DNA from: Harmothoe impar
Taxonomy: Eukaryota > Annelida > Polychaeta > Phyllodocida > Polynoidae
NCBI GenBank assembly: GCA_947462335.1
Contig: OX381704.1
Coordinates: forward strand, 121,578,065 to 121,642,064
Direction: 5' to 3'
DNA: 64,000 bases
Under the pieces are notes generated by a model that ran no database searches, had not been told where the DNA came from, and saw only the letters and a list, made by a program, of their open reading frames with translations. This document shows positions 1 to 48,869 of the stretch, one piece after another (within the stretch, counting starts at the first letter, position 1; every line of letters begins with the position of its first letter). A program made the position numbers and the translations under genes.

Positions 1-1041
1 AACAGGTAATGTATGCACTTTCTGTAACAGGTAATGTGTGCACTTTCTGTAACAGTAATGTATGCACTTTCTGTAACAGCAACAGGTAATGTATGCACTT
101 TCTGTAACAGGTAATGTGTGCACTTTCTGTAACAGCAACAGGTAATGTATGCACTTTCTGTAACAGGTAATGTGTGCACTTTCTGTAACAGCACCAGGTA
201 ATGTATGCACTTTCTGTAACAGTAACAGGTAATGTATGCACTTTCTGTAACAGCAACAGGTAATGTATGCACTTTCTGTAACAGCAACAGGTAATGTATG
301 CACTTTCTGTAACAGCAACAGGTAATGTATGCACTTTCTGTAACAGCAACAGGTAATGTATGCACTTTCTGTAACAGGTAATGTATGCACTTTCTGTAAC
401 AGTAATGTGTGCACTTTCTGTAACAGTAATGTATGCACTTTCTGTAACAGTAACAGGTAATGTATGCACTTTCTGTAAGAAGAACAGGTAATGTATGCAC
501 TTTCTGTAACAGCAACAGGTAATGTATGCACTTTCTGTAACAGTAACAGGTAATGTATGCACTTTCTGTAACAGCAACAGGTAATGTATGCACTTTCTGT
601 AACAGTAACAGGTAATGTATGCACTCTCTGTAACAGCAACAGGTAATGTATGCACTTTCTGTAACAGTAATGTATGCACTTTCTGTAACAGGTAATGTAT
701 GCACTTTCTGTAACAGTAATGTGTGCACTTTCTGTAACAGTAATGTATGCACTTTCTGTAACAGTAACAGGTAATGTATGCACTTTCTGTAAGAAGAACA
801 GGTAATGTATGCACTTTCTGTAACAGCAACAGGTAATGTATGCACTTTCTGTAACAGTAACAGGTAATGTATGCACTTTCTGTAACAGCAACAGGTAATG
901 TATGCACTTTCTGTAACAGTAACAGGTAATGTATGCACTTTCTGTAACAGTAACATGTAATGTATGCACTTTCTGTAACAGTAACAGGTAATGTATGCAC
1001 TCTCTGTAACAGTAACAGGTAATGTATGCACTTTCTGTAAG
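1..1041. repeat. Minisatellite, unit about 25-32 bp, in a COG2 intron
   Basis: About 1 kb of tandem units built on AGGTAATGTATGCACTTT followed by CTGTAACAG, with short and long variants. It runs off the left edge. On the minus strand (COG2 sense) each unit contains a CTGTTACAG acceptor-like string, the form taken by the splice-junction arrays elsewhere in the window. No exon is visible beside it here. Confidence 0.95.
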
Positions 1042-1179
1042 AATACTGCCCCTTATCAGTGGCAGCAGCCACTGCGGGGGGTGAGCGGAATACTAATCAA
1101 TATACACATGTTAATCCCCGATGACAGTCAATTAAAAAGTTAAAAGTAAGCACTCCCTTGGTAAGGCCCCCCCACTCAC

Positions 1180-4100
1180 CATGACTTCGTCCCTGAGCTG
1201 CACCAGCGGAGACGTCAGGCTGTTGATAGCTTTGTCCACGCCAACCTGAAGATGGAAAACGGTATATCGTAAAACCTTGCGTACCGGTATACGCCTAACT
1301 CCCGTATGAGCCACTCCCTGACTTTGGGCTGATTCTATAAGCTGCAATGGCGATCTGATTATAGTGTCAGACTTTTCTACTGTACTAGAGGACCTAAAAC
1401 TCGCACATAAGCCACATCCGGAGTCTGCCAATCCTATAAGCTGCACTAGGAATTTGACTCGCATACTGGTCACCGCTTATACAATGTACCCGAGGTTTTA
1501 AGGTAAATATTTAATAAAACAATATGTACATGTAGATCTACACCAGTACAAGGAAATTGAATAATTATATTCCAATATCAATATCTTTTAAGTTGTCCCT
1601 TTATCTCATTATGATCCATGAATGCAGCCCTGGCGAGTCTACTCTGTAATTAGTGATTTAGTCTGTAAAGGCGAGTTTTCTGTAAAGGCCGGTTATCAAA
1701 GTTATCAACAAGAGGTATCCTTACCAGGTTAGTGGACAGGTTGACAAAGTCTGCGTAGTCCTTGTTGATGAGTTCTATCATGGCCGACTGCAGGATCTTG
1801 AGGTAGACGTTGAGGTCGTTACGGAGGTTCTCCAGCGGCACCCGGCGCCGACACTCCACCACGAACTGGTCCACGTTAAAGTCATCCTGAAACACAACAA
1901 CCATATGTACAGTTAATCATGCTTAGGCCACTTAAAGTCGATATCAGCTTTGCGGACACCGCCCGCACCCTCTAAAAGGGGCCGCATTGGTACTTTTTTT
2001 CATGCTTTTAGAAAAAAAATTGACCAAAAATAGCGCATGGAGGAAAACACCAGCAATACATTTGCAATAGTATCAATATCTCAGCTGTTAATTGGGGTAG
2101 CAACCTAATTTAAAAGGTATTTTAGACCTTATTTCCACATCCAGACATTAAAGTTCTAAATAAAAATAAAAAAAGGCCCTCCCGCACCTCCAGAAAATAG
2201 GAAAACAAAATAAAATAAAAGGCGCCCTCCCGCACCCTGTTTTTCTAAAAAGCGTCCGCAAAGCTAATAATTGACTTTAAGTGCCCTTATTTGATAATAA
2301 TAATATTCGACATACCCCAAATTTCTGCAGGTAGTATGCAAACCAAATTGCCAATGCGGGTAATAGGATTCTCCTATAAAGTCGGGGTGCAGGTAATACA
2401 TGAGATGCGGGTAGTAGGCAAGAATTTACGGTAATTAGTAAGAGTTATTACATCGAAGATCTTAACACCCACACACTGATATGTTACATGGTAGTGCTTT
2501 GATGTACTAGGGTAGATTCACCTTGAGTATGACAAATATACATGTAGTCAATTGAGCTTTCTCAACCTACCGTAAATTCCCGCGTACTACCCGCGGGTTG
2601 TACGCGAAACAAACCCAGCTTTCATTTGATACCAAACATGCCTATATAGGGTGCGGGTTATACGAGGGTTTTTATTACTATAGAACAGTACTAAAATTGA
2701 AATTATTAAACAACAACAGGGAAACCGGGAGCCTACCCAAGGATGCATTTCGTTTGCTCACTCTCCATCCTACTCTCTGCGTTCAAGTATAGGAATCTAC
2801 AGTCCTAATATCTGCTGGGAGAATGATTTTTCACGACATTACTGAGTCTATTTGTGATAGGCTAAGGCATTCCCGCCATGCAGTATAGTAGGTCAGACGA
2901 ACGCTGTCTCCACGATTTTCCCGCGCCAGCATCTCCGGCAGCGGAGCTGCTGGTCAAATTCAAAAACGGGTTATAGAATTCCCCTGAGTTGGGGGTGCGG
3001 GTTATACGCGAGATGCGGGTAGTACGCGGGAATTTACGGTACTAGTTCTACCCGGTAGCGGTACTCTGTGATGGTTGGGCCGCTGCTGCATAGCAACGAC
3101 TCAAAGAGAACAATAGAAATTGCCATCAAGCGCCAGCGGAACCCACAGGCAATCAGTGGGTTTCTTGTGAACTACTCATACCGTACCAGGCATGACTTGT
3201 CGAGGAGACTCCATTCACGATAGTTCATTGGACAGGCTGTAAGGCCCGTAGGGTAGTGAAGGCTGATCAGCTGATGAGGGGAACGGCAATGACTAGGCAT
3301 GACATGAGATGGACACTCAAACTTGTGTTTATTCAATCACTCTAATCTCTTTATTTGTGAATAATGACAAGGTTTATTTACCGCATAGAACTACTAGGAG
3401 TTTCATTTTACTTTTAGGAACTGGCAGGGAACTTGGGTGTGTGTGATCTACTCTGTCTGACTCTGAGTCTCTGAGAGTCAGACTCTCTTCCACTAGCCAC
3501 TTTCGTACCCCTACTAAGCCTCCCGATCCTCTCACGTCAGTAGGGCTACTGGGCGACCCCCCTTCATTTGGTGGGGGAATTTTTGAAAAGGGCGGTTTAC
3601 ATTAAAAACGTCTTTTATGCATGTTCTAAAATAGATAACTAGATAGATTAATGTCTTGGCTATGCGGTTTACATCAATCCAGATGCAATCACATCTTTCT
3701 AAATTAATTATGAGGTCCTTTTCAAACCGTATCAACCCTCAAAAAGCAGCGGCCGCCATTTTGACGTCCATCTGAAGTACCATGTTGTCATGGTAATATG
3801 GAGCCAGTGCCCGCAAAACTTAGCTACGATGCAGTCAGTCTGTAATTCCTCCGGATACAGACGAAACTCAGTCTACTCTTCCATCCCCTGACAGCCCTGT
3901 GCCCCCCCCCCGGGACCTGTGAAAAGTCGACGGTATCCCAGGTGAACTGAGCAAGACCGAGTGCGTGAGTGAGTGAGTGAGTGAGCGAGTCGCACACTTG
4001 TGTAATACAAAATACACTTGTGCAATATAAAATATATCAAGTGCCCCCCCCCCTCTCCACCCCCGGCCGGGTAGTCACAGAACGAGACTCTAGAGAGCAC

Positions 4101-4692
4101 CCATCAGCTTCTAAGCGATCACTTGTTTTGAGCCAGTTCAACTAGGGCCGGGGTGCCACACCAACACTACCTAGTTCCGACGTAACCCACTGCGGCTACG
4201 CCTGTGGGTTACGCTGGGGCGGCATGGGAATTATTAGGGTCTCTTTGAGCAATCAAAAATTGCCGCTAGATGGCGCCACCGTCTATGACGGTCCCGTGAT
4301 TTGCGACCCAGCCTGGGTCGCATTCACTCCCAGCCTTTGGCTTTGCTATGCAGTGGCAGCCCAACCTACACGGAGTAGTAGGTTGGGGAAGCTCAACTAA
4401 CACTACCAGACAGTAACAATGACAATGTAAGTGTTGACTGTTTAATATTGTTAGTGAGTGAGTGAGTGAGTGAGTGAGTGAGTGAGTGAGTGAGTGAGTG
4501 AGTGAGTGAGTGAGTGAGTGAGTGAGTGAGTGAGTGAGCGAGTGACTGAGTAAGTCAGTGAAGACTGAAGTGAGTGTTGAGACTGTTGAGTGTTGTGTTG
4601 GCCGGGCGCCTCACCTTCATAAACTCCTCCTTGTTGAAGCTCAGGTTGACCGGACTTGGCGGCAGCGTCCTCTTCAGCGACTCGGAGATCAT
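1180..4692 (-). CDS. COG2: COG2, conserved oligomeric Golgi complex subunit 2 (5' part, three exons)
   Basis: COG2 is a lobe A subunit of the COG tether, which acts in retrograde vesicle traffic at the Golgi. Coding exons in gene order: 4692-4615 (26 codons, start MISESLKRTLPPSP, ending FNKEEFMK), 1886-1725 (54 codons, containing VDQFV, CRRRVPLENLR and the hallmark ELINKDYADFVNLSTNL) and 1245-1180 (22 codons, GVDKAINSLTSPLVQLRDEV). All three end in phase 0 at GT donors (gtgagg, gtaagg, gtgagt), and both visible acceptors are good (ttcag, cttcag). Order and spacing match the N-terminus of animal COG2. The ATG at 4692 is chosen because it is in frame just upstream of the conserved block. The remaining exons lie left of the window. 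Intron 1 (1887-4614) holds two short elements and a GTGA microsatellite. Confidence 0.93.
1929..2283. mobile_element. Short non-autonomous element with about 29-bp inverted ends
   Basis: The ends CACTTAAAGTCGATATCAG and, inverted, CACTTAAAGTCAATTATTAG both lead into AGCTTTGCGGAC. GCC stands next to both ends and may be a 3-bp target duplication. The inside is C-rich and A-rich with no reading frame. A relative with the same AGCTTTGC core lies at 49802-50325, and a fragment lies near 41450-41500. Confidence 0.7.
2568..3041. mobile_element. MITE with TACCGTAAATTCCCGCG inverted ends
   Basis: The left end TACCGTAAATTCCCGCG is mirrored on the right by CGCGGGAATTTACGGTA. Inside are variants of 'gcgggttatacgag'. 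It belongs to the TA-flanked CCGTAAA family seen at 30702, 51795, 52429 and 60773. The 64-codon frame inside is not a gene. Confidence 0.8.
3042..4452. other. COG2 intron 1, no gene seen
   Basis: This stretch contains C-runs near 3900 and 4045, a short GAGT run near 3968 and unique-looking sequence. I see no exon, RNA gene or complete element. Confidence 0.6.
4453..4538. repeat. (GTGA)n microsatellite
   Basis: Pure tetranucleotide run of about 21 copies in COG2 intron 1, about 75 bp downstream (in gene sense) of the exon 1 donor at 4614, with imperfect copies at its right end. Confidence 0.97.
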
Positions 4693-6147
4693 CCTGCTGC
4701 TGAACGCATCGAGTTTACTCACAAATTAACTTTAATTCAGTTTTATTTCACTTGACTGCTTTACTTCGCCAACACGGCACAGGAAGTACTCGGCAGGAAG
4801 TCTCTGTTTCTACCTCCGTGCGCTTTGACTGAAGAGCTCTAATTAGTTTCCTTGCGTCTCACCAGAGGACGCACATTGTCGTTTGCCGCGCTCGATATGC
4901 TCAACTTGGCTCAACGTAGCTCAGGCGACCTGAACTCTATTTTCTCCGTTCCTTCGTAATAGGAAGACCAGCGGCTTCGCCGCCTGGATACTGATAGGCC
5001 TACATGTACTTTACCAGTAAAATTTTCTTGAAAATAAAACAAATTTCCAAACAAAATGCGTGAGGGTTGACAACCCTAGGCGCACTCAACCCAGGACCTA
5101 ACCCTGCCGAGTTTTGTACGCAAATGACGTTGTGGGTTCAGTGCGCATTTAAACCTTGAAAGAAAGAACGGAGGGGGGGGGGGTTAACAAACTCGGTAGA
5201 ATGTCACACGCGGGAAAATCAATGTGGCTCGGGCTGCGACGTCCGGGCGTCTTGGTGACCTACATACGCAGATGGCCGTGCCGTGTCCCATACCGTTTTA
5301 TGGATGTATGTAGGTACGATGAATGTTTATAAATAGAAGTAGTTTATATGCTGAGATATGTTATATATCCTTTGCAATATTCACAGAGGATATGTAGAAG
5401 TAGAAAATAACGTGCTCAGCATGAAGGAAGACGAGAAATCAATTTATAAGAACACAGGTACATTGGGAAAATATTTGACTGAGACAACTGCAGAGATCAC
5501 CATATGCCAGGCGATCGCCGACCAAAAGTAAATAAGGAGGTAATCATTTTGTATCTTAATGAGGACCTAAAAAAAAAAAAAAAAAAAAAAAGAGCTCATG
5601 ATACCAGCACTTTGAGAGTGGAGGAATGGGTGCGCGCAGGTGCTTGCCCGCACATTTTCGGCCATAAATATTTGGAATTTCTTTATTTTCTCTTTTACCT
5701 AGACAAGTTTCAGATTTTTCTTAGCGCTAAAAATGTATCAAAAACTAAATTTAAAAGAAAATGGTACAACATTGTAGGAGATTTTGTGATATTGATTCAA
5801 TTATTTTCATTTCCATGACACTTGACAAATTTTCAAAATTCCGTGACATTGCAGATATCTTTCAAATTCCATGACATGTGGGAATCCCGTAAGAGAGATA
5901 TTTGGTTCTATTAGACACACGCTGTGTTTACAAGGTCACAGATATGTTCACTGAGTACAACACTATACATGTTACACACATTGGGGGTCGGCTTAAAAGC
6001 AGGCCGGCTTATCACACTGTTTTAATACGGTATTCACTATTACATTGACATTTCCCGATGGAACACTGATCAGTCTGTTCCTTCACTAACTATACCAGTT
6101 TACACGTTGGTGTCAACATGAAATACGACCAGCCTGAGGAACGACCT
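4693..6147. other. COG2 5' flank and intergenic DNA
   Basis: This interval must contain the COG2 5' UTR and promoter, reading leftwards. I see no TATA box or start that fixes the transcription start. A pure A tract near 5570 and G-runs near 5170 are the only low-complexity features. The 104-codon frame at 5504 owes its lysines to the A tract and is rejected. The right boundary is the ACCT at 6144-6147 beside the palindrome. Confidence 0.6.
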
Positions 6148-6208
6148 CAGTAGTATAGTATGTATCGGAACGGGACTATAGTTAAGTACTGTTTATTACT
6201 CAATCGAC

Positions 6209-6521
6209 CTGCAGCCAATCAGAGGCCTCCATTTGGTCACGTGACCGGAAGTGACCTACTTAGGGGATTAGTGGTGCATTCTGGGTAACCCTGCAGCCAA
6301 TCAGAGGCCTCCATTTGGTCACGTGACCGGAAGTGACCTACTTAGGGGATTAGTGGGGCATTCTGGGTAACCTACTGACCTACTTAGAAGCTCTCAGCCA
6401 ATCAGAGGCCGGCATTCTGGTAACCATGGTAACGTGACTTACTTACGTCACGTGACCTACTTAGGCTCAGCCAATCAGAAGCCGGCATTCTGGTAACTAG
6501 GGTAACGTGACCTACTTAGGG
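6209..6521. promoter_or_regulatory. Subterminal repeats with CCAAT, E-box and ETS-like motifs (left end)
   Basis: Two direct 82-bp units (6209-6290, 6291-6372), then shorter relatives to 6521. The units carry CAGCCAATCAG (CCAAT box), GTCACGTGACC (E-box palindrome), CCGGAAGTGACC (ETS-like) and CCTACTTAGG. The same set is mirrored at 14585-14897. They could be transposase-binding subterminal repeats, promoters, or both. Confidence 0.6.
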
Positions 6522-8535
6522 TTTGTTTGTAAACAACACCACGTGGCTCTCTTGTTTGTAAACAACACCACGTGACACATGACTGTTTGTAAACAAACAA
6601 TTCGACTTAGTCTGACATTTTCAGCTGTCGCATGCTGACCTGCTGCTATCATAAGAGAAACAAAAGCCCTAATCACGCTTTTCAGCTGGATCCTTCCACC
6701 CACCAGACATGGATCCAGATGGGAGGGTGGTTTAAAATTAATCCGTGTACCGACTGTCATACAATAGTGTAATTAGTTGAACACGTGTTACCTGTATAAA
6801 GGATTAGCAGGTCATGGGCTTAGAGTGTGTATAGAAAAACAACTACAGGTAGCGTGAACAAAGCGACCCCCTCCCTTTCTGTCACTCTGTCTGTGACTAG
6901 AGGGCGCGCGTGTGGTAAGCGGCTTAAATCTAAAGAAAAAAAATCACCCTCTCCTGTCGTCAGCAGTCAGCTGGCCGGCGGCTGGAAAATGCGATTAGAG
7001 GGATGATGAGCGCGGTTTTTTATATTCAATATATTAGAAGTGTGCTTTGTTGCTTATATAGTTCATTATGCGTTTAAAATGTTCGCGAGTATCGTAGAAA
7101 TGTACAAAAATCCTATTGTGGCGCCATCTGACGAAAAGAGCGGAGAACTATACTAGGGTATGGCGAGCTAGACTAGAGCATGTAATCACCAGGCGGCAGA
7201 GTGGTCAAAAGACAATCTCGTAGTAGTAGGTCTACTTGGATCTTGAGTAGCCACCCTTGTGGTTGCAATTACCTAGACTAGTTGACCCTGCCAGCCTGGT
7301 CAAGTGAAATTAGTAAGGAGACCGCACATTAACGCGCTCCACAGTCTTTAGACAGTTAAGACTATAGTACCGTAGATTCTACTGTGTACTCACACTAACT
7401 ATTTACAGTGCTACATATTCATACCCGTGTTCTAAGTGTTTTTTTAGAAAAAAGCGATCTACTCACCCATTTTTTTTAGACAAACTCCTATTAGCAGGTA
7501 ACCCCTGTATAAACCATACTGCAAAGATCTGCTACTTCGAGCGTCTGCCTCGTGACTGATAGTGTACAACAAGACGAAGTGGGCAGAGGTGAAGTACTGT
7601 TCCAAGAAAAATTGAGGCTCTTTATATAGCTGAGAGAGCGGCTAATCCGGATGTTCTAAGCTTGTTTTCACCTAGAGCCCCACCCTCTTCCAGAGAGGAA
7701 TCAAATTGCTTTTCACCTGGACCCTTCCACCCCTCATCCATCAGCATGAAAAGAGGGATAACAAGTGTAACGTGCGCTACATGTATATGGGATTATAGCT
7801 GGTGAAGAGATAAAGCCAGGTCAACTGTGTATACAAAGACTACAGGAGGTGATTAACGACAGGTGTGACGCGCCAGCCCGTGGACGGATTATCTTCTAAG
7901 CTGACGCTTATTCAACTAGCCAGCTGCCGTCCGCTCCACTCACCACGGCAAGAGGAGGTGCTTTTGTTTTACACTTAAGTCGCTTACCACATGTACTCGT
8001 CTCTACCTCACAGACAGACACCCTCTCGCTTGCTTCACGACCCCTGTAGCTTTTTTTGTATACACACTCTAATCTCATAACCCCCTGATCCGTTATACAG
8101 GTAACGGGTATTCTCTTTTAAATAGCTGCCAGTCAGCCTGCGGCAGCTGAAAACGACGGTAAGTAGCTTAGCTCTAGAAGCAAGAAGGCGCATATAAGGA
8201 GGCTGACACGTGTATAGGCGCCTTATAAGTCGGCAGGGGGTAAATACTAGTGAAAAAGGAAGGCAGGTGTGCAGGTAGCTTTCTAACAGACACGTGTGTG
8301 CACTAAGCTGCTTAAGTCTAAACCCACCTGCAGTAGTCAGGTAGCATGTGAAAACTTACTTAACAGATCTCTTAATTGAGTAGAGACTCTGTACTGAGAG
8401 AGTCTTTTCAGCCGTTTAAGAGGATTATCTAGGACAGGGTACATAAGGAGTGAAACGACGCTCTCACCCATCACACTTTCTCGACCCGCCCTTCATCATC
8501 GTAGCATCGTCCACTCTACGCTCGCTCAGAATGTT

Positions 8536-9402
8536 ATGATGGTTAGTTCTGCTATTTTCAGCTACTTTTCTTATCGAAGTGTTGACGCTACAGAGCATCG
8601 AAACTCTCTCCAAATGAGTCCAAGAAAGAAAAAGCAACTTCCACTTGAAGCAGGAAGAGAAACAGTGCCCTATGATGCATGTGAGGTAAAGAAACATTGG
8701 AAGGACGTCACCAAGGAGCAATGGATAGAAGCATGCTTCAACTTCATCGGAACGGAAGTAGTTTCATTTGGACAGAGGGAGAAGATTTTGTTGGAGCTAT
8801 TTTTCTTAGCTCCGTATACTTGGCCTGACTGTGGTGAAATTCCTTCAGGTATTTGTTCAGTCTTCGCCATAGAAGTTATCAGGTCTTTGAAGGAGCTTCG
8901 ATATATGCAAGGCACTCACGAGGAGATTGTTCAGAAAATGACGGAATTCGAAACAGGAGAAGACACAATATGGTGCGAGGAGACGACATATACGGACGAT
9001 GATCTGGAGTACATCATTTGTAGCCCGTTGGAACATTATGTTAAAGACTTTGAGGACATGCTAGACAGCACTGAGATGAACCCGAAAGAGAGATCCCTTA
9101 CTGCACAGAAAGAGGCCAAAGCTGTGTTGGAAAAGCTCAAGTTTGGTCAAGGATTCACTCTTCAAAGCAGCTGTGTGAGTGTGATAAAAGGCCTTGTGTT
9201 GAAACATCCAGACATGAAGTTTTCGCGTGCTGTCGACACACTTCCTTTGCCTGAACTGATGATGAACATGATCGATCCCATCGTACCAACATGTTTCGAC
9301 TCTGCCAATTGTCCCATGTATAAAATGGTTTCAAGTTTCGCCCGTGGCCGATGGCTAAACAATCCACTGAAGTCAGAAAACCTCCTTGATTTAATCAACT
9401 GA
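8536..9402 (+). CDS. Unrecognised 288-aa protein, left-arm copy
   Basis: An intact single-exon frame from MMVSSAIF to DLIN and TGA. A second in-frame Met (MSPRKKKQLPL, near 8614) has a good start context and may be the real start. A basic patch near the N-terminus is followed by an acidic, helical, cysteine-containing body; no signal peptide or membrane span is seen. By eye, two stretches recall the order of hydrophobic positions in the CLAMP / flagellar C1a-32 domain (CFAP119/CCDC189): ILLELFFLAP with the following helix, and KGLVLKHPDMKFSRAV ending in MYKMVSSF. This is pattern-level only and could be chance. It is not a transposase or polymerase that I know. AATAAA follows at 10420. The twin copy is at 12570-11704 and differs at one residue that I can see (Asn here, Asp there). 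Confidence 0.6.
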   Translation: MMVSSAIFSYFSYRSVDATEHRNSLQMSPRKKKQLPLEAGRETVPYDACEVKKHWKDVTKEQWIEACFNFIGTEVVSFGQREKILLELFFLAPYTWPDCGEIPSGICSVFAIEVIRSLKELRYMQGTHEEIVQKMTEFETGEDTIWCEETTYTDDDLEYIICSPLEHYVKDFEDMLDSTEMNPKERSLTAQKEAKAVLEKLKFGQGFTLQSSCVSVIKGLVLKHPDMKFSRAVDTLPLPELMMNMIDPIVPTCFDSANCPMYKMVSSFARGRWLNNPLKSENLLDLIN

Positions 9403-9462
9403 CTAAATGTATTTTCTCATACTAGTATTAGTAGCATTAGTAATAGCAGCTACTCAGTCTCG

Positions 9463-9717
9463 TGCAGCACAAGCAGCAGCATCTGTCAGCAGCATCCGTG
9501 ACATCGTCAGCAGCAGCAGCAGCTGCACGAGCAGCACAAGCAGCAGCATCTGTCAACAGCATCCGTGACATCGTCAGCAACTGCAGCAGCTGCACGAGCA
9601 GCACAAGCAGCAGCAGCTGTCAGCAGGTGCAGCAGCTGCACGAGCAGCACAAGCAGCAGCACCAACAGCAGCAGCAACAGCAAATCAGCAGCAGCAGCAG
9701 CAGCAGCAGCAGCGGCG
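9463..9717. repeat. CAG/GCA-rich tract, left arm
   Basis: Interrupted CAG repeats mixed with a 'gcagctgcacgagcagcacaa' type unit, ending in a purer CAG run before GGCGG. Several frames stay open (poly-Ala, Gln, Ser, Leu) and are by-products. The right-arm copy has about two more CAGs. Confidence 0.9.
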
Positions 9718-10419
9718 GTGTGGACCACTAAATTCGAGATGGCGACATGTCTGTTTCTTAGAATCGACATTCGACATGAGGCCTAGTGACATTTGACATG
9801 AAGCTTGAAAAACATAGTGACAGGTGACATGAGCAATTCTTAAAATCGACATGAGATATGAGCATAATTAAGCGACATCGACATGTGCCATGGCTATTTT
9901 TTTTTAAGACAAACGCCATAGACTCCTCATTCAAACCCCCACTAGTAGTGCTCTATAAGCGCAAGCTTTGCCTTAAGAGAGCTGTGGCTGTGAACCCTCT
10001 CCTCCCCCCGTACACACAGGTAAATATCAGAGTCAGCCAATGTCGCCAATACTACTCTCATACAAGGGTCAGGCACTGCTGGACTATAATAGATGGGTCA
10101 AGGACCATTCTACTGAGGGTCAGGCTAGGCTGGACATTCAATAACAGGCTGGACTTTGGCAAACTTGCTTGAAAGTCTGGCCAGCAAGAGTCCGTTGAAG
10201 GACTATACGGTAAAAAGGCTGCTGTTACAGTCAAGATACTCATATTTCAAGCCCAGAAAACTGTAATTAGCTTTCCAAGTTGTTTATTTAACAATATCCT
10301 GGCCTAGCAAGAAGCTGTCAGATGACATCTAAGAAAAATGGGGCTGTTAATTGATCAAGAGAGCTACATTGTTACAGAGTCCTATTCCTCTTTTGAGGTG
10401 GGACCAAATTTGAAAAAAG

Positions 10420-10425
10420 AATAAA
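10420..10425 (+). terminator. Candidate poly(A) signal of the left-arm gene
   Basis: AATAAA about 1 kb after the stop of the 288-codon gene and about 130 bp before the palindrome centre. Transcripts that fail to stop here would fold on themselves. Confidence 0.4.
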
Positions 10426-10672
10426 CTCAAAAAAAAAGCCTTAAGATTGAAACAGTTGTAGATGACAAATTTAATGAGGAAGTCGTATTAATTAGTTTAC
10501 AAATAGCCGCTGCACGAGCAGCACAAGCAGCTCGTGCAGCTGCTGCAGCTGACACTAGTGTCAGCTGCTGCTTGTGCTGCTCGTGCAGCGGCTATTTGTA
10601 AACTAATTAATACGACTTCCTCATCAAATTTGTCATCTACAACTGTTTCAATCTTAAGGCTTCTTTTTTGAG

Positions 10673-10678
10673 TTTATT
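10673..10678 (-). terminator. Candidate poly(A) signal of the right-arm gene
   Basis: TTTATT on the plus strand, the mirror of the AATAAA at 10420. Confidence 0.4.
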
Positions 10679-11382
10679 CTTTTTTCAAATTTGGTCCCAC
10701 CTCAAAAGAGGAATAGGACTCTGTAACAATGTAGCTCTCTTGATCAATTAACAGCCCCATTTTTCTTAGATGTCATCTGACAGCTTCTTGCTAGGCCAGG
10801 ATATTGTTAAATAAACAACTTGGAAAGCTAATTACAGTTTTCTGGGCTTGAAATATGAGTATCTTGACTGTAACAGCAGCCTTTTTACCGTATAGTCCTT
10901 CAACGGACTCTTGCTGGCCAGACTTTCAAGCAAGTTTGCCAAAGTCCAGCCTGTTATTGAATGTCCAGCCTAGCCTGACCCTCAGTAGAATGGTCCTTGA
11001 CCCATCTATTATAGTCCAGCAGTGCCTGACCCTTGTATGAGAGTAGTATTGGCGACATTAGCTGACTCTGATATTTACCTGTGTGTACGGGGGGAGGAGA
11101 GGGTTCACAGCCACAGCTCTCTTAAGGCAAAGCTTGCGCTTATAGAGCACTACTAGTGGGGGTTTGAATGAGGAGTCTATGGCGTTTGTCTTAAAAAAAA
11201 TAGCCATGGCACATGTCGATGTCGCTTAATTATGCTCATATCTCATGTCGATTTTAAGAATTGCTCATGTCACCTGTCACTATGTTTTTCAAGCTTCATG
11301 TCAAATGTCACTAGGCCTCATGTCGAATGTCGATTCTAAGAAACAGACATGTCGCCATCTCGAATTTAGTGGTCCACACCGC

Positions 11383-11388
<6 letters not shown>

Positions 11389-11420
<32 letters not shown>

Positions 11421-11646
11421 ATTTGCTGTTGCTGCTGCTGTTGGTGCTGCTGCTTGTGCTGCTCGTGCAGCTGCTGCAGCTGCTGACAGCTGCTGCTGCT
11501 TGTGCTGCTCGTGCAGCTGCTGCAGTTGCTGACGATGTCACGGATGCTGTTGACAGATGCTGCTGCTTGTGCTGCTCGTGCAGCTGCTGCTGCTGCTGAC
11601 GATGTCACGGATGCTGCTGACAGATGCTGCTGCTTGTGCTGCACGA
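11389..11646. repeat. CAG/CTG-rich tract, right arm
   Basis: Mirror of the tract at 9463-9717 (reads CTG on the plus strand), with a slightly longer pure run near 11389-11420. Confidence 0.9.
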
Positions 11647-11703
11647 GACTGAGTAGCTGCTATTACTAATGCTACTAATACTAGTATGAGAAAATACATT
11701 TAG

Positions 11704-12570
11704 TCAGTTGATTAAATCAAGGAGGTTTTCTGACTTCAGTGGATCGTTTAGCCATCGGCCACGGGCGAAACTTGAAACCATTTTATACATGGGACAATTG
11801 GCAGAGTCGAAACATGTTGGTACGATGGGATCGATCATGTTCATCATCAGTTCAGGCAAAGGAAGTGTGTCGACAGCACGCGAAAACTTCATGTCTGGAT
11901 GTTTCAACACAAGGCCTTTTATCACACTCACACAGCTGCTTTGAAGAGTGAATCCTTGACCAAACTTGAGCTTTTCCAACACAGCTTTGGCCTCTTTCTG
12001 TGCAGTAAGGGATCTCTCTTTCGGGTTCATCTCAGTGCTGTCTAGCATGTCCTCAAAGTCTTTAACATAATGTTCCAACGGGCTACAAATGATGTACTCC
12101 AGATCATCGTCCGTATATGTCGTCTCCTCGCACCATATTGTGTCTTCTCCTGTTTCGAATTCCGTCATTTTCTGAACAATCTCCTCGTGAGTGCCTTGCA
12201 TATATCGAAGCTCCTTCAAAGACCTGATAACTTCTATGGCGAAGACTGAACAAATACCTGAAGGAATTTCACCACAGTCAGGCCAAGTATACGGAGCTAA
12301 GAAAAATAGCTCCAACAAAATCTTCTCCCTCTGTCCAAATGAAACTACTTCCGTTCCGATGAAGTTGAAGCATGCTTCTATCCATTGCTCCTTGGTGACG
12401 TCCTTCCAATGTTTCTTTACCTCACATGCATCATAGGGCACTGTTTCTCTTCCTGCTTCAAGTGGAAGTTGCTTTTTCTTTCTTGGACTCATTTGGAGAG
12501 AGTTTCGATGCTCTGTAGCGTCAACACTTCGATAAGAAAAGTAGCTGAAAATAGCAGAACTAACCATCAT
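11704..12570 (-). CDS. Unrecognised 288-aa protein, right-arm copy
   Basis: Mirror copy of the gene at 8536-9402: same length, same two possible starts, same stop, and one visible residue change (WLNDPLK here, WLNNPLK in the left copy). Both frames are intact, which means either recent duplication of the arm or continuing arm-to-arm gene conversion. The two genes converge on the palindrome centre. Function not recognised; the CLAMP-like resemblance noted for the left copy applies equally. Confidence 0.6.
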   Translation of the reverse strand: MMVSSAIFSYFSYRSVDATEHRNSLQMSPRKKKQLPLEAGRETVPYDACEVKKHWKDVTKEQWIEACFNFIGTEVVSFGQREKILLELFFLAPYTWPDCGEIPSGICSVFAIEVIRSLKELRYMQGTHEEIVQKMTEFETGEDTIWCEETTYTDDDLEYIICSPLEHYVKDFEDMLDSTEMNPKERSLTAQKEAKAVLEKLKFGQGFTLQSSCVSVIKGLVLKHPDMKFSRAVDTLPLPELMMNMIDPIVPTCFDSANCPMYKMVSSFARGRWLNDPLKSENLLDLIN

Positions 12571-14584
12571 AACATTCTGAGCGAGCGTAGAGTGGACGAT
12601 GCTACGATGATGAAGGGCGGGTCGAGAAAGTGTGATGGGTGAGAGCGTCGTTTCACTCCTTATGTACCCTGTCCTAGATAATCCTCTTAAACGGCTGAAA
12701 AGACTCTCTCAGTACAGAGTCTCTACTCAATTAAGAGATCTGTTAAGTAAGTTTTCACATGCTACCTGACTACTGCAGGTGGGTTTAGACTTAAGCAGCT
12801 TAGTGCACACACGTGTCTGTTAGAAAGCTACCTGCACACCTGCCTTCCTTTTTCACTAGTATTTACCCCCTGCCGACTTATAAGGCGCCTATACACGTGT
12901 CAGCCTCCTTATATACGCCTTCTTGCTTCTAGAGCTAAGCTACTTACCGTCGTTTTCAGCTGCCGCAGGCTGACTGGCAGCTATTTAAAAGAGAATACCC
13001 GTTACCTGTATAACGGATCAGGGGGTTATGAGATTAGAGTGTGTATACAAAAAAAGCTACAGGGGTCGTGAAGCAAGCGAGAGGGTGTCTGTCTGTGAGG
13101 TAGAGACGAGTACATGTGGTAAGCGACTTAAGTGTAAAACAAAAGCACCTCCTCTTGCCGTGGTGAGTGGAGCGGACGGCAGCTGGCTAGTTGAATAAGC
13201 GTCAGCTTAGAAGATAATCCGTCCACGGGCTGGCGCGTCACACCTGTCGTTAATCACCTCCTGTAGTCTTTGTATACACAGTTGACCTGGCTTTATCTCT
13301 TCACCAGCTATAATCCCATATACATGTAGCGCACGTTACACTTGTTATCCCTCTTTTCATGCTGATGGATGAGGGGTGGAAGGGTCCAGGTGAAAAGCAA
13401 TTTGATTCCTCTCTGGAAGAGGGTGGGGCTCTAGGTGAAAACAAGCTTAGAACATCCGGATTAGCCGCTCTCTCAGCTATATAAAGAGCCTCAATTTTTC
13501 TTGGAACAGTACTTCACCTCTGCCCACTTCGTCTTGTTGTACACTATCAGTCACGAGGCAGACGCTCGAAGTAGCAGATCTTTGCAGTATGGTTTATACA
13601 GGGGTTACCTGCTAATAGGAGTTTGTCTAAAAAAAATGGGTGAGTAGATCGCTTTTTTCTAAAAAAACACTTAGAACACGGGTATGAATATGTAGCACTG
13701 TAAATAGTTAGTGTGAGTACACAGTAGAATCTACGGTACTATAGTCTTAACTGTCTAAAGACTGTGGAGCGCGTTAATGTGCGGTCTCCTTACTAATTTC
13801 ACTTGACCAGGCTGGCAGGGTCAACTAGTCTAGGTAATTGCAACCACAAGGGTGGCTACTCAAGATCCAAGTAGACCTACTACTACGAGATTGTCTTTTG
13901 ACCACTCTGCCGCCTGGTGATTACATGCTCTAGTCTAGCTCGCCATACCCTAGTATAGTTCTCCGCTCTTTTCGTCAGATGGCGCCACAATAGGATTTTT
14001 GTACATTTCTACGATACTCGCGAACATTTTAAACGCATAATGAACTATATAAGCAACAAAGCACACTTCTAATATATTGAATATAAAAAACCGCGCTCAT
14101 CATCCCTCTAATCGCATTTTCCAGCCGCCGGCCAGCTGACTGCTGACGACAGGAGAGGGTGATTTTTTTTCTTTAGATTTAAGCCGCTTACCACACGCGC
14201 GCCCTCTAGTCACAGACAGAGTGACAGAAAGGGAGGGGGTCGCTTTGTTCACGCTACCTGTAGTTGTTTTTCTATACACACTCTAAGCCCATGACCTGCT
14301 AATCCTTTATACAGGTAACACGTGTTCAACTAATTACACTATTGTATGACAGTCGGTACACGGATTAATTTTAAACCACCCTCCCATCTGGATCCATGTC
14401 TGGTGGGTGGAAGGATCCAGCTGAAAAGCGTGATTAGGGCTTTTGTTTCTCTTATGATAGCAGCAGGTCAGCATGCGACAGCTGAAAATGTCAGACTAAG
14501 TCGAATTGTTTGTTTACAAACAGTCATGTGTCACGTGGTGTTGTTTACAAACAAGAGAGCCACGTGGTGTTGTTTACAAACAAA

Positions 14585-14897
14585 CCCTAAGTAGGTCACG
14601 TTACCCTAGTTACCAGAATGCCGGCTTCTGATTGGCTGAGCCTAAGTAGGTCACGTGACGTAAGTAAGTCACGTTACCATGGTTACCAGAATGCCGGCCT
14701 CTGATTGGCTGAGAGCTTCTAAGTAGGTCAGTAGGTTACCCAGAATGCCCCACTAATCCCCTAAGTAGGTCACTTCCGGTCACGTGACCAAATGGAGGCC
14801 TCTGATTGGCTGCAGGGTTACCCAGAATGCACCACTAATCCCCTAAGTAGGTCACTTCCGGTCACGTGACCAAATGGAGGCCTCTGATTGGCTGCAG
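14585..14897. promoter_or_regulatory. Subterminal repeats with CCAAT, E-box and ETS-like motifs (right end)
   Basis: Mirror copy of the block at 6209-6521, in inverted orientation. Between it and the gene lie the GTTTGTAAACAA / CACGTG repeats of 14510-14585. Confidence 0.6.
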
Positions 14898-14962
14898 GTC
14901 GATTGAGTAATAAACAGTACTTAACTATAGTCCCGTTCCGATACATACAATACTACTGACCT

Positions 14963-17479
14963 CAGATACCCAAAAATGTCAATGGAATAGCAATTCTATT
15001 AGCCAATGATCATAATACATGTATGTGTGTATATCTAGACGAGGGAGGGGGGGGGGTCTGGCATGACCCCCAGTTTTATTCTTGCATTCTACAAACACTC
15101 TGCTGCATTTTCATGTAGGTCTAAGCTTGTTGAGTCCGGGTTATCTACTTGAATATTTAGGTGGATTCTGAAACTAAACATAAACATGCACGAATCTTGT
15201 CCTAGAGAGTCCCCTCTACACTTTACCCCACCAGAACCATTCCGAAGTTGCTACACCACCTGCCCCCTCCTGAAAGCGGGTAGAATATTTTTTATCCCCT
15301 CCCCCCTCGACACGGCGGTTTTAAAAATCGACACGGGCGACACGGCCGTTTTTAAAATCGACGGGCATGCTAAGATTGAGTAGAAAGTATAGCTATGTAT
15401 GGAATAAAAATCGACAGTGACACAGCCCTTTTGCTTAAATCCAACACGGTGACACTGCCAAAATTCTGGGTACCAATGTAATAATGTAGAGGCAAATATA
15501 TTACGCACGCCCGTGCTAGCTCTCCTAGGTGCACGTACACACGTTAAGAGCGCAATCTTAACCTAAGAATTAAGACTATCTTAATTGTCTTAAAATTAAT
15601 TCTGACACTACTCCCTAGAGGGTGCCACACTCTTAACACAGAATTAAGACCGTCTTAATTATCTTAACCTATCTCAAATTATCTTAAAAATGTTTCTAAG
15701 CAAATGAAGGTCTTGACCCCCAACCTGACCCTACCAAAAAAGTGTTTTAAAACAGATTTTGATTCTTTTATTCAATTGAAATACCATGTGCCATTGGTAT
15801 AGCAAGTATACTTAACGTGAAGATGGTTTGTAAGGCATTAAAATTGAGTAAAATTACTGTCTAAGTTTTCATACTTTTCTATACCATTAAATCTCAAATA
15901 TCCTTTGACAAAACCCCGCCTATAAGCCGAATGTGAGTTTGAAGGAAAAGATTCGGCTTATAGCAAATAAAAACGCCAAAATAAATTCGGCTTATAGGCG
16001 GGGTTTTACGGTAGTTCACTCCAGTGATACTTTCTGTACCATTTGTGGCCAGTTTTGATCACTAGAATATATTATATGGCTATCTGAAGCACAAAATTCA
16101 AATTAGTGGCCTTTTTGAGCTTGAATCTGGGGACAGCATAACCTGGGAAATTGATACTATCCATCATAATTGAAAAAGCACTGGAATATGGTCATTTTTT
16201 TATGGATTTTGAAAAATTACCTTTAAATAAATAGCATATGATCAGTTTACAAAAATGTCACATATTTCATATTTTTATCATTTTCTGGCAGTTTGAAAAA
16301 CCCAAAGAAAATGGCCAAAAGACTGTATTTCCCCCCAATACCCGTATTTTCACATATTTATGGTAGCAGCCTAAATAAATAGCCTATTCACGTGAATATG
16401 TTTCTTTAAATGTCAATTTCTGTAGTCCTCAGCCCTCAAGGCTTCTCTCCAGTCTGTATTCTTGCATAAGATAAGTTTTTGAAAGACTGGAATCTGAATT
16501 GTAACTCCAAACATCTCCAATATGTAGTTAGTAAGGCATCAGTCCGCTATATGCCTGTCGGACCTGCAGGGGGGAGGGTCAACATTTTTCGTGCCAAATC
16601 TTACCATTACATGGGAGGCCTTTGAAGCATGTGGCTCCAGAGAGGTCAAAAGTGACCTGGCGACCTGGGCTGTTTTCCAGGCGACCTGGTACAATAATAA
16701 AAGCGACCTTGCGACTTTTTGAAAAAATTGACTATAGCATTAAAATGGTCTAAAAAACGACTTTGTGACCTGGGGCCCTTAATTTCGGCGACTTTCAGAC
16801 CTCGGGGGGGGGGGGGGGGGGGACCCCTCTGCACCCCCAAGCATAGTAGGATGCAGCTTTTTTTCTGCCCCCCCCCCCCCAAAAAAAAAAGAGGAGTCCA
16901 AATTTCTTACACCCCCCCTCTCGCCAAGGGATCCAAATTCTTTCCCCCTGCCCCCTGTGCCTGTATGAGCACTCCCTATGGGAAATATTGTCGCCCCTCC
17001 GCGCGAAATCTCGCCATCCCCCCCCCCCCCCCCCCCCCTGTGACTCATAAATAAACCCTCCCTAAATTCGAATCATTTCCATTCTGTGAGAGCTGCAGGC
17101 CGGCCCTGCTTGGCTGTTCACAACCAAAGTTTTCCGTCCGACAACACTGACCTACAAACCTACGTCATAGACACCCCCACCTCCCCGGCGCACCTCCCCC
17201 ACTAGACTAGTTCCAATCCCGACGCTCCGCTTTGCCTAAGTGAGGGCGAGCGGTAGCCGTAGGAGCGCATGGGATTGGAACGAGTCTACTCCCCCACCTC
17301 CTCCGCAACTCATGAATATTCAAATCCTATTTCAAACCCCGCCAGTCCTGGAAAAGTCATGGGCACGTCATACACAAGTAATCAACAACCAAAAATACAA
17401 TTCAGCCACGCACATTAAACATCCAGGAGCGCTCAGAGACCTCCATACCGAGGTTTCTGCGAGAATTGTGCACGATATG
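14963..17479. other. Intergenic DNA between the palindrome and ARID4
   Basis: No gene seen. It holds ATCGACACGG-type repeats (15300-15480), a stretch rich in 'cttaattatctta' (15550-15690), a CCGTAAAA-family fragment with one clear end (15910-16014, ending GGGGTTTTACGGTA), 'gcgacctgg' repeats (16640-16800) and long G- and C-runs typical of the GGGAGTG element family (16800-17070). Confidence 0.6.
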
Positions 17480-17789: not shown

Positions 17790-20700
17790 ATGGTAAAGTA
17801 TAGTTTTTGAGTCATTTTCTCTGCGCACGGTTTGAGCGCGTATGGCGAATGTCATGTTTTCCAACGTAGTGAGAGTGTGACATGTTTTGAGGACAACATT
17901 TCGCCGAGATAGATCGGTGATTTGAAGTCAGATGGTCTTGGGTTTTCTAGGAACCAATGGCTATTCACAGAAAGACGGTGATTGTGTATTTGTGTGACTG
18001 TTTGGGGCTGGGAGAAGGCGGAGACTGCGGCTGTGCGTTCATTGTTCGTGATGGGCCTCGCCGCCATGTTCGCCAACATCCCCGGCCCAGCTGACTGGGT
18101 CAGCACCTACCCACACTTCACAGGGGGAAAGGGGATCTAGGCCGCCTCCCCTCCTGCCAAAACCTCACCACACAACAGGGATGGGTGCTAGCGGGTCTCT
18201 GCCATACAAACCACAGTAAAAGTACTCACAGAAGTCGCTGAGATTGTGAGGGAGGGGAGTGTAAGATGACGGGTATGTGTATTCAGTTGGGAAGACATGT
18301 TGCGTTGTGGATTGGGGGGAGGGGGTGGAGTGAAGTGCGTCACAATTTGACAGCTGAATCACCAGCATTCATTTACTATTTTTACTGTCCTGGGCAAAAC
18401 CAGAAGATGAAGGCAAACATCAATTGGCACTGGTCACATTACCTACAGACATGCATATCTATATTTGATGGAAAATAAGAAAAACTACCAGTTGATGTTA
18501 GAACAAATTGAACACCCCAGCCCCCCCCCCTCCCCTGCCGACACACATCTGAGAAATCAACTTCCATGGTTTGATCATGTCATCCAAGAAGATGGCTTTT
18601 GAAAATCGACCATTGAACTAGCCAGTCCTTTTTTAAAGTGAGCCTAGGCGAAGCCTAGCCTGAAGCCACGCAAGCACTTTATGCAGTGGTCAAAATTCAT
18701 GGGCGATTTGCAGCATTCCATGGTCAGATTCAATGGTTAATTTCTAGAGAGTTCAAGACCATTAATACTTTAAAAGGTCTCAAACGATCTCCAATCATGA
18801 AAATCTTTCAGTTACCTTCATATAATAATGTAAATAAATTAGTAAGGGGGGCCTATTTATGTTGACTTTCTGCACAATGCTGTAAAATCTTTGAAGAGGG
18901 ACAAAATGGCCGACATTATGTGTATTTTCACATTCTCCTAGCACATTCAAATACATCAGTACATTCTCAATGCAACTCGACTAAACATCTGGATGGAGAG
19001 TGTACAGTGAGTGACGTCACAGTAGCAGTGACGTCACAGTTTTAGCGACGTCGCGACGTTACCAAGCAACGTCGCTATGTTACCTAGCAACGTCACTATG
19101 TTACCTAGCAGTGACGTCATGCAGTCCATGTTGTTTTGATTTGTGTTTATGGTCAGATTCGGCAGCAGTTTGCTGTTAGAGTCGACAGTAGTTTGCTGCC
19201 CGGGGTTTGCTGTCAGAGTCGGCAGTAGTTTGCTGTCAGAGTCGGCAGTAGTTTGCTGTCAGAGTCGGCAGTAGTTTGCTGTCAGAGTCGGCAGTAGTTT
19301 GCTGCCAGAGTCGGGAGTAGTTTGCTGCCAGAGTCGGCAGAAGTTTGCTGTCAGAGTCGGCAGTAGTTTGCTGCCAGAGTCGGCAGTAGTTTGCTGCCAG
19401 AGTCGGCAGTAGTTTGCTGCCAGAGTCGGGAGTAGTTTCAGGGCTCGACAAATCGTTTCAGCACATGTGTGTCCACTGGGCACAGAGACAAAAATATGTT
19501 GTGTCCAGTCGATGGAATCTGTGCCCGACGGGGCCATGAAAATGTTGATAAATACTTTCTCTTTAACAAAAGGATAATTTACAGGATCTTGTATCGATAT
19601 ATTGACTTCCATATCTAGGATCCTGATACTACCAGCTTTCCAACAGTGCATAAAACTCGTTATTTGCCTGGTGGTTTTGCTCATGGAAATATGGTGCAAA
19701 ATGTTCTCAGTTTGAGTTGTGTCCACTGGGCACAACTTTCAAATTTGTTTGTGTCCAGTTAAATATTTCTGTGTCACGGGCACTGGACACAGCGATTTGT
19801 CGAGCCCTGAGTTTGCTGTCAGAGTCGGCAGTAGTTTGCTGTTAGAGTCGGCAGTAGTTTGCTGCCAGAGTCGGGAGTAGTTTGCTGCCAGAGTCGGCAG
19901 TAGTTTGCTGTCAGAGTCGGCAGTAGTTTGCTGTCAGAGTCGGCAATAGCTTGCTGTCAGTGTCGGCAATAGCTTGCTGTCAGAGTCGGCAGTAGTTTGC
20001 TGTCAGAGTCGGCAATAGCTTGCTGTCAGAGTCGGGAGTAGTTTGCTGTCAGAGTCGGCAATAGCTTGCTGTCAGTGTCGGCAATAGCTTGCTGTCAGAG
20101 TCGGCATCAGACTGAGTAGTTTGCTGTCTGAGTTGGCCGAAGTCGTTAACTGTCAGAATCGGCAGTAGTTTGTGGTCAGAGTCGGTAGTAGTTTCCTGTC
20201 AGAGTCAGCAGTAGTTTAAGGGGCTCACTTTTTTCCAGGGAAGCTTCCAATTTTAATTCATAAACTCGTTAGCACTACTTTCTTCTCGCAAACTTGAGTG
20301 CTCATAAATCCCCTGTGAAAGGCAGCTTGACTAGAGTTATGTTCCATGCTCCACGGTGTCCAGTCCACAAGCATGTAACACTGAGCATTCAGTCTCATGG
20401 CGACCTTAAGTCACACAGACAGAGTACCGGTGGCCAATACAGGAGCATTTAAGCTGGTGGCACACTGCTGCAATTTTGCTGCAAATTGCCTGTGACTGAG
20501 ACTCGTGCACGTACACACCGACGAAATGCCCCAGCAGTGGAAAAGCTGCTGCGAGTCCCTGCAACAATCATACGCGAGAGACGTGCGACTACTCACAGAA
20601 ATCTAAAAGTTTTAATTACTGCGAGTGTAGTAGCAATTGTCCTCCGTGCCAGTACATTTGTAACGAAGTTGCGACAGTGGATGACCGGCTTTAGTTATCC

Positions 20701-48076: not shown

Positions 48077-48869
48077 TTACATCGCTTGCATCCGTATTAA
48101 GCCACAGTCTATTAATTTCTGAATCTTTGCTGCGATTTCAGGGTTTTTCAAATGTCTGCAAAGAAAGGAAAGGAGAAATATTATAAGCTGTGGGAAAACA
48201 TTTCAGGTTTGCCCTAATATAATATAGAATTTATGTTGTAGCGTTATGGATTACAGTGTACATGGAGACAGTCATCAACCAATCAACACTTCTCTAACAT
48301 GAGATAGGCGGGGAGAAACCCGCTAGATAACATTTACTACTCGGTTAGGGACCAACACAAAAACCATGGGAATCCGACTGACTGACTGAGTAGCAGGGTT
48401 GCTACTATTTTTTTCAGTTATAGTTTTAAATGACACTTTTAGTATTGCGGGTAACTCCCAAATAGTGTGTAACGCTACACTTTTTTTTTTTTTGAAATCT
48501 TAAGTTTTAAAAATGGTGCATTCTATGAATTTTGCTAAAAACGTTAACTGACATTTTCTCAAAAATCTAGAAATGGACAGAGGAATTTTTTTTTTTTGAA
48601 AACATTTAACTTTTAAAGAGAATAAAGTAAGAGTATTATGTGATGGCTGGCATATAGAGGGGTCTAGATAATCCCCCGCCCCCTCCCCCTGTAAGAAGCG
48701 GCACTCACTCTCTGACTGCGGAGGTGTCTTGCTGCATCTGACTGAGGATGGTCTGCATGCCAGGGTCCTGCAGGATTTTACGGATCTCCGGGTCGTTCAT
48801 GACACGCTGCTGCACTGCCTCGGGGTCGTTCTCCTCCGCACTGCACCGCCGGAACCCGTCCAGCGCCTC
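48077..48869 (-). CDS. STIP1: STIP1: DP2 domain and C-terminus
   Basis: Exon 48869-48709 reads [41 protein letters not shown], ending in phase 2 at GA|gtgagt. The last exon, 48155-48077, reads [20 protein letters not shown] then RMQAM-stop. The NDPE..ILQDP..QTILSQ helices and HLKNP.IA.KIQKL are the classic Sti1 DP2 signature. The last exon is only 79 bp with acceptor TTCTTTGCAG. Confidence 0.95.

Follow-up and report, generated by a model that had tools for sequence, protein, structure and literature searches.

An abundant palindromic element in Harmothoe impar, probably a non-autonomous member of a Polinton/Maverick-type system with genes divided among same-ended elements

The window analysed here, a stretch of 64,000 nucleotides from the polynoid annelid Harmothoe impar (GenBank assembly GCA_947462335.1, contig OX381704.1, positions 121,578,065 to 121,642,064), contains a palindrome of 8,809 bp with one copy of the same gene in each arm. 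We consider it quite probable that this palindrome belongs, as a non-autonomous segment, to a Polinton/Maverick-type system in which the genes are split over element types of similar size with the same ends. A fuller form of this reading, which we place slightly on the probable side, is a segmented Polinton: an integrated germline double-stranded DNA virus-like system in which the polymerase, the integrase and virion genes, and the host-directed genes lie on separate, capsid-limited elements of near-equal size with common ends, one segment being palindromic with two facing ubiquitin-ligase adaptor genes and arms that are kept alike.

Alignment of the window with itself gave an inverted match at 6147-14959 with 99.4% identity over 8,826 columns and an axis between 10556 and 10557. 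A preliminary description of this DNA had reported a near-perfect palindrome of about 8.8 kb, two facing gene copies with one residue of difference, and arms that are truly distinct. Each of these held. Every arm has an intact 262-codon open reading frame (ORF), the two copies differ by one amino acid, and the arms are separated by 7 substitutions, one single-base indel, one 9-bp change in the number of CAG units and one 15-bp insertion near the centre (the arm alignment has 12 differences, two of which, at the first base and at the axis, were discounted as edge effects of the cut). The claim that there is no spacer was nearly right, except that the 97-bp centre contains the 15-bp insertion on one side. 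The termini are AGTAGT and ACTACT. The target duplication, described before as the 4-bp ACCT, proved to be the 6-bp GACCTC, of which ACCT is only a part. Chapaev/Academ-like elements, the lead named at that time, have target duplications of 3-4 bp; since the duplication here is 6 bp, the superfamilies with 4-bp duplications do not apply and were rejected. The 262-aa gene (334 codons from stop to stop) is the sole long frame in the palindrome, and no protein-primed polymerase, integrase or capsid gene was found among the palindrome's own frames by ORF scan and by Pfam on the 262-aa protein.

The genome searched (G000) is one assembly of 1,511,831,793 bp in 736 contigs. A search with about the first 300 bp, proposed earlier as a check, found many further copies: the 301 bases from 6148 gave 385 candidates, and the best 40 of these, when scored, yielded 5 short matches and 40 at 100% identity that span 300 or 301 bases, two of which are the ends in the window itself. 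We took 20 stretches of 9.8 kb, ranked by their match to the window's left end, and found that 19 are palindromes of 8.1-9.0 kb with about 99% identity to the window arm, while L013 is broken. A perfect 6-bp duplication stands at the element ends in 18 of the 20 as well as in the window, the exceptions being L009, with discordant flanks, and L013, which is without a right end. Ranking by the window's left end biases two positions of that end, the one just before AGT and the ninth. These carry no weight, and a fixed C and a fixed A there were rejected as inferences; the C is unmatched in 7 of the 40 full-length end matches. A 52-mer of the palindrome centre matched the genome 324 times (up to 2 mismatches), on which a single recent event was rejected. 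The 25-base end pattern (up to 1 mismatch) matched 14,260 times, 7,115 forward and 7,145 reverse, and its reversed control had 0 matches in either direction, so that the count is far above what chance would give. The palindrome is a member of a young family of many copies.

An empty site was also present. In L023 a palindrome lies inside another element of about 9.36 kb and has GATATA on both flanks, and the homologous site in L032, without a palindrome, has a single GATATA. This is the empty site of a palindrome insertion. Together with the duplications in 18 of 20 stretches it bears out the earlier claim of a mobile element that inserts with target duplication. Ends, duplications, empty site and copy numbers are read directly from the assembly. 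Two observations on individual copies may be added. L020 (oriented, about 9196-9434) has roughly 200 extra bases near the right palindrome tip with its 6-bp duplication still intact, and some centres lie close together as duplicated or rearranged centres (C3:75971545/75972055, 510 bp apart; C6:78841258/78841340, 82 bp apart). No relatives were confirmed in viral_contigs by protein (77 stretches matched a pattern) or found there by the end pattern, and neither an RNA family nor, by a scan with the bacterial code, a tRNA was found.

The same ends flank elements that encode a polymerase. L032 holds a complete one at 114-9455 (9.34 kb, duplication CATAAG), and the one in L023/L029 (duplication ACTGGC) is about 9.36 kb without the palindrome, as calculated from coordinates. 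The palindrome's terminal 239 bp occur at one end of these elements at 97.5% (L023/L029) and 98.7% (L032), and their other ends match the palindrome terminus over 189-190 bp at about 93% (189 bp at 92.6% for the repeat at 6149-6387 against the left end of L032). L032 has a polymerase frame of 1,380 aa, a PC4-like gene over two frames and a death-domain protein on the other strand; in L029 the polymerase is divided into three frames, and the PC4-like gene has one whole frame. In Pfam, a 1,021-aa part of the L029 polymerase matched DNA_pol_B_2 above the cut-off (E 1e-7), and further L029 frames matched Death above it (5e-8) and PC4 below it (1e-4). When the 1,021-aa part was used as the query, the best 45 of 7,124 candidates were the query itself and 44 others with 98-99% identity, most of which lie in frames of 1,377-1,380 aa. 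No integrase-like or capsid-like frame was found in L032 among frames of at least 120 codons. Death-domain proteins occur in several Polinton types (L029:501-1340 by Pfam; L032:1191-2021 by blastp, 27% versus L031; L031:8981-9694), and death-domain-like frames were judged by eye to be present in L040-L042.

Integrase and capsid-like genes were found on a different type. The stretch L036 covers 9,600 of the 10,446 bp inside the end pair C1:68939-79384, and the end pattern is present at both ends of this element. L036 has an integrase core (E 3.8e-13) and an IVa2-type ATPase (E 1.6e-5) above the cut-off, a chromodomain and an adenovirus-type protease (E 3e-4) just or somewhat below it, and frames resembling the major capsid protein (MCP) and a minor capsid protein; the frames are open in the copy read. 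No polymerase was found in the 9,600 bp read. Subterminal sequence of 231 bp matches the palindrome arm at 99.1%. Gene content was thus observed directly for two types, and the search for an autonomous relative, named before as a check, led to same-ended elements that encode polymerase (L029, L032) and integrase and capsid proteins (L036). The earlier description of a foldback-type mobile element with cargo but no transposase stands in that the element is mobile, palindromic, carries cargo and has no transposase of its own; it does not stand in that the element is no orphan. A 40-mer of the integrase gene matched the genome 1,578 times (up to 2 mismatches; control 0). Eight of the 10 exact matches listed within C1:1-4.36 Mb lie in adjacent end pairs of 10,419-10,537 bp, and none of the 10 lies in any other adjacent pair: the match at 1173071 adjoins an unpaired left end, and the match at 3037926 is outside an inner pair and within the outer ends 3023555/3043628, which, when the inner element is subtracted, are about 10.5 kb apart. 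This nested arrangement at C1:3023555-3043628 is like that of L023 and is probably an element inserted in one of the 10.5-kb type.

A complete Polinton-like element in a single piece is present in the same genome (L030/L031, C1:44041000-44060999). Its open frames encode a polymerase of 1,189 aa, integrase, ATPase, MCP-like protein and protease, with a tandem death-domain-like gene. No terminal repeat was found in the 28 kb read, nor did blastn match the pieces read to the palindrome. Its proteins are related to those of L036 in integrase (35%, 1e-60), MCP (27%, 4e-47), ATPase (33%, 6e-40), protease (35%, 3e-25) and minor capsid protein (26% over 87 residues, 9e-8). Between L032 and L030 the polymerases have 23-25% identity, over parts only (1e-8).

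Element sizes were read from the first 100 exact matches listed of the 14,260 end-pattern places, all on C1 at 0.07-4.36 Mb; the listings for the gene and integrase 40-mers are likewise first exact matches. These ends form 46 adjacent inward pairs, and 8 ends are unpaired. Forty-four of the pairs are 8.7-10.54 kb apart, with 10 at 10.40-10.54, 17 at 9.39-9.60, 11 at 9.69-10.07 and 6 below 9.39 kb. No spacing of 17-20 kb was found among the 46 listed adjacent pairs, and the single outer span of 20 kb encloses a complete inner element. Pieces of 500 bp were sampled from 18 of the pairs for gene content. One pair matched the palindrome, three had 95-96% identity to the polymerase type, another three, which carry the 262-aa gene, had 85-86% to it in the region of its promoter, three had short arm matches only, and eight had no match to the three known types (three of these eight are the other gene carriers). 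The sampled pairs include ones that match no known type, so further element types exist. Samples with the same ends and no or brief match to the three types are L043, L047, L050 and L054; L049; L052; and L044 and L051.

The third of these types carries the gene of the palindrome once. A 40-mer of the gene matched the genome 2,293 times (up to 2 mismatches; control 0), and because this far exceeds twice the 324 centre matches, even allowing for rearranged centres, many gene copies must lie outside palindromes. Facing pairs and single hits stand side by side among the 100 exact gene matches listed, and confinement of the gene to palindromes was rejected. Exact matches fall in 7 of the 46 listed pairs (4.36 Mb): one is an 8,934-bp palindrome with two facing matches, and the other six are 9,773-10,007 bp long and have one match each, always 1,729-1,794 bp from the end at which the gene points, a position that was observed directly. 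By eye, the 500-bp pieces of these six carriers form two groups of three with 99-100% identity within a group, as would be expected for one type in two orientations; one of the groups has a death-domain-like frame (by eye). L033 is an older, interrupted relative of the gene-side end. Its homology to the palindrome arm extends in pieces up to arm base 4358 (TTAGTTTACAAATAG) and is followed by 715 bp more to a normal end. At the same base the palindrome passes into CCGCTGCACGAGCAGC, a copy of sequence from its own CAG region, and then reaches the axis. This departure is what loss of an end and fold-back copying would leave, and the most likely origin of the palindrome is a third-type element from which one end was lost and which was then copied back on itself. 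The arm is a mosaic, because its outer 870 bp has blocks with 99.1% and 96.6% identity to the integrase type. The blocks at 7962-8021 and 8111-8199 are probably a promoter shared with the PC4-like gene of L032, and an inverted, more diverged copy of them lies at about 6787-6856. A fainter inverted repeat within the arm (arm bases about 471-813 versus 1798-2006, 74-81%) suggests earlier palindrome formation in the same lineage.

We compared variants in 20 elements, over the arms with two parts excluded, the CAG tract and the 75 bases next to the axis. Private variants were present in both arms of one element in 39 cases and in one arm only in 64, the latter in 18 of the 20 elements. Seven sites vary in more than one element: at sites 1042 and 2057 all carriers (4/4 and 7/7) have the variant in both arms, whereas site 9, at the tip, has it in one arm in 11 of 11 carriers and site 4325, near the centre, in 9 of 10. 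This homogenisation, which can be seen directly, indicates that each copy has its arms equalised, to a lesser degree at the tip and around the centre, and that new one-arm changes accumulate afterwards. The centre is rearranged in 7 of 20 elements (L009, L016, L017, L023, L025, L026 and L028), and L022 is without 3 bp. Most copies have the centre with the one-sided insertion; the palindrome therefore spreads as a whole and does not arise afresh in each case.

The 262-codon frame is open in all 40 arms of 20 elements (19 taken stretches and the window), and 29 of the 40 encode an identical protein. Homologues numbered 8 by single sequence and 14 by profile (the 8 included), down to 38% identity. 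There were no names or precomputed domains among these 14, the window protein had no Pfam match, and no convincing relative with a solved structure was found. We take [ST]L...C...[ILVA] followed by LPxP to be the SOCS-box motif pair (BC-box, then Cul5-box). Both of these motifs, with 15-40 residues between, occur in 11 of 15 family members versus 0 of 30,000 shuffles; the first motif in the form given is missing from P0011, the two in P0007 stand closer together than the 15-40 residues required, and both are absent from P0005 and P0014. The gene product thus appears to resemble SOCS-box ubiquitin-ligase adaptors.

From these data we infer co-replication, packaging, a snap-back origin and a protein function as follows. 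The polymerase of one type would start protein-primed copying at the AGTAGT ends of every type, and the integrase of another would put these linear DNAs into the genome with duplications of 6 bp. The integrase type's capsid-like, protease and ATPase genes may serve to package the segments, which would explain the narrow size range of 8.7-10.5 kb. An element of the third type, with the gene once and pointing at the near end, would have lost that end; the broken strand would have folded back and been copied into a head-to-head dimer bounded on each side by the surviving end, and the palindrome would then have spread as a unit with its partners' enzymes. The earlier suggestion of an insertion of palindromic extrachromosomal DNA fits if it means the integration of a linear palindromic replicon of Polinton type. 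The 262-aa protein would probably be an adaptor that brings a host protein to the Elongin B/C-Cullin 5 ubiquitin ligase, and this activity would counter a host defence; here our reading is weakest.

Several observations weigh against our main reading. The polymerase type falls in no single size class, because its samples at 95-96% come from pairs of 8,967, 9,547 and 9,747 bp and the complete element in L032 measures 9.34 kb. The remaining two of the 46 listed pairs are 13.2 and 15.9 kb apart, with a gene content outside the sampled set, and elements with altered ends or genes are unseen in listings of exact matches. L036 excludes the outermost 161 and 685 bp of its element. The third type is known from 500-bp pieces, match positions and the old, interrupted relative L033. 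Three of the seven shared variant sites (209, 596 and 3757) are mixed, with the variant in both arms of one element and in one arm of another; ordinary gene conversion would also give homogenised arms, and repair of a hairpin intermediate fits as well. Pfam SOCS_box matches are sub-threshold (0.0011, 0.076 and 0.13) in three of the nine relatives scanned, so we call the product SOCS-box-like and not a SOCS-box protein.

Since a complete single-piece Polinton exists in the same genome, the split types could also be leftovers that complement one another and not segments of a single replicon. In one alternative, internal rearrangement produced the palindrome and the other types as defective derivatives dependent on enzymes of the complete element, with no obligate division of labour and no packaging. 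The polymerase matches include 28, among those listed, over the same full range (profile 12-462) as the polymerase of L030/L031, and non-autonomous elements are known from every transposon class. However, blastn found nothing in common between the palindrome and the pieces of that Polinton that were read, the 46 listed pairs show no element of 17-20 kb other than the span around an inner element, and the integrase type is itself numerous, with open frames in the copy read. We therefore regard this alternative as unlikely. An ordinary foldback or long-TIR (terminal inverted repeat) DNA transposon, moved by a host or unknown cut-and-paste transposase and convergent with Polinton ends, would account for the very long inverted repeats and the lack of a transposase, which are traits of foldback elements. 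It is already contradicted, and very improbable, since the 239-bp end flanks protein-primed-polymerase elements at 97-99%, L036 with its Polinton integrase has the common subterminal sequence, and the 6-bp duplication and AGT doublet agree with Mavericks. Least probable of all is an artefact of hairpin reads or a mis-joined copy: the analysis rests on one assembly, and missed adapters in long-read libraries can yield long palindromes, but 324 centres, individual duplications in 18 of 20 stretches, private one-arm variants and the single GATATA at the homologous site led us to reject it.

The features of the palindrome are collected in Table 1. The host DNA of the window is very rich in tandem arrays with units mostly of 5-37 bp (51-1040, 19205-20217, 25336-25960, 38573-40453, 50727-51797 and 61646-62664). 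A host frame at 48705-49184, which presumably resembles the end of a STIP1/Hop-type co-chaperone, runs into a 35-bp tandem repeat.

Table 1. Coordinates of the palindrome and its parts in the window.
Feature	Position	Strand	Remarks
Target site duplication GACCTC, left copy	6143..6148	.	6 bp; from the sequence and the flanks of 20 further stretches
Palindromic element	6149..14957	.	8,809 bp, two 4.4-kb arms, ends AGTAGTAT..ATACTACT
Left terminal repeat, common to polymerase element	6149..6387	+	239 bp; 98.7% to right end of L032
Outer arm blocks 6370-6600 and 6609-7014	6370..7014	+	99.1% and 96.6% to two separate L036 stretches; mirrored in right arm
Blocks 7962-8021 and 8111-8199	7962..8199	+	85-90% to intergenic DNA upstream of the PC4-like gene of L032
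Left-arm gene	8614..9402	+	262 aa; SOCS-box-like C-terminus (TLQSSCVSVI, LPLP)
CAG-rich tandem region 3' of gene	9464..9713	+	mirrored at 11384-11642
Conserved centre with one-sided insertion	10501..10597	.	97 bp, insertion of 15 bp
Right-arm copy of 262-aa gene	11704..12492	-	
Right terminal repeat	14719..14957	-	mirror of 6149-6387
Target site duplication GACCTC, right copy	14958..14963	.	6 bp

Polintons are thought to stand near the root of many eukaryotic DNA viruses. If the segmented reading is true, the split form, which has about 14,000 ends in this genome, would show by what route a self-synthesising transposon can turn into a multipartite virus or a community of helpers and satellites, and the division of labour would be directly testable in one organism. 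In the palindrome, snap-back replication of a protein-primed genome would have left a heritable record, and the upkeep of likeness between arms of 4 kb could be studied there as a natural experiment. We found no report of a segmented or palindromic Polinton by title or opening of the abstract in the literature searched, which most subscription journals are outside of, and the separation of polymerase from capsid and integration genes was not found reported there for the Polinton/Maverick family.

Vertebrate Mavericks have (AGT)2//(ACT)2 ends and 6-bp duplications, a role in jumping-back is given to the doubled AGT motif, and intact elements average about 17 kb with two core-gene modules on one element (PMC8097293); Polintons are described as single pieces of about 15-20 kb (PMC4046053, PMC8097293). 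The family described here is alike in its AGT-doublet ends, its 6-bp duplication and, for the polymerase type, its terminal repeats, which are a few hundred bp long, and in having a protein-primed polymerase, retroviral-type integrase, protease, ATPase and capsid-like genes (PMC8097293). It differs in that the polymerase and the integrase and capsid genes are on different elements (9.3 versus 10.4 kb) and in that one type is a full palindrome without polymerase or integrase. The palindrome has the ends and the duplication of the family and lacks its genes, and we therefore class it as a non-autonomous Polinton/Maverick relative, joined to the others by the terminal repeat common to L032 (239 bp) and the subterminal sequence common to L036 (231 bp).

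Bidnaviruses have segments with a common terminal structure, as many as twelve being reported for some, and a protein-primed polymerase derived from Polintons (PMC4061559, PMC11071296). The split genome, the common ends and the Polinton-type polymerase are likenesses to the present system; bidnaviruses differ in having single-stranded DNA and a parvovirus-type capsid (PMC4061559, PMC11071296), while here there are integrase, Polinton-type capsid-like and ATPase genes, thousands of integrated copies and one palindromic type. Separate polymerase and integrase/capsid types with common ends would also fit a multipartite virus if together they make up one gene set. Palindromic defective adenovirus genomes are head-to-head duplicates of one end; the literature searched gave no confirming paper for these. 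The snap-back defective genomes of adeno-associated virus likewise are head-to-head duplicates of one end of a linear genome (PMC8235507). Both are products of infection, whereas the palindrome is inherited, present in high copy and integrated with target duplications. Foldback transposons such as Tetris and Galileo resemble it in having very long inverted repeats with little or nothing between, but the ends and the duplication of the palindrome are those of a polymerase/integrase system.

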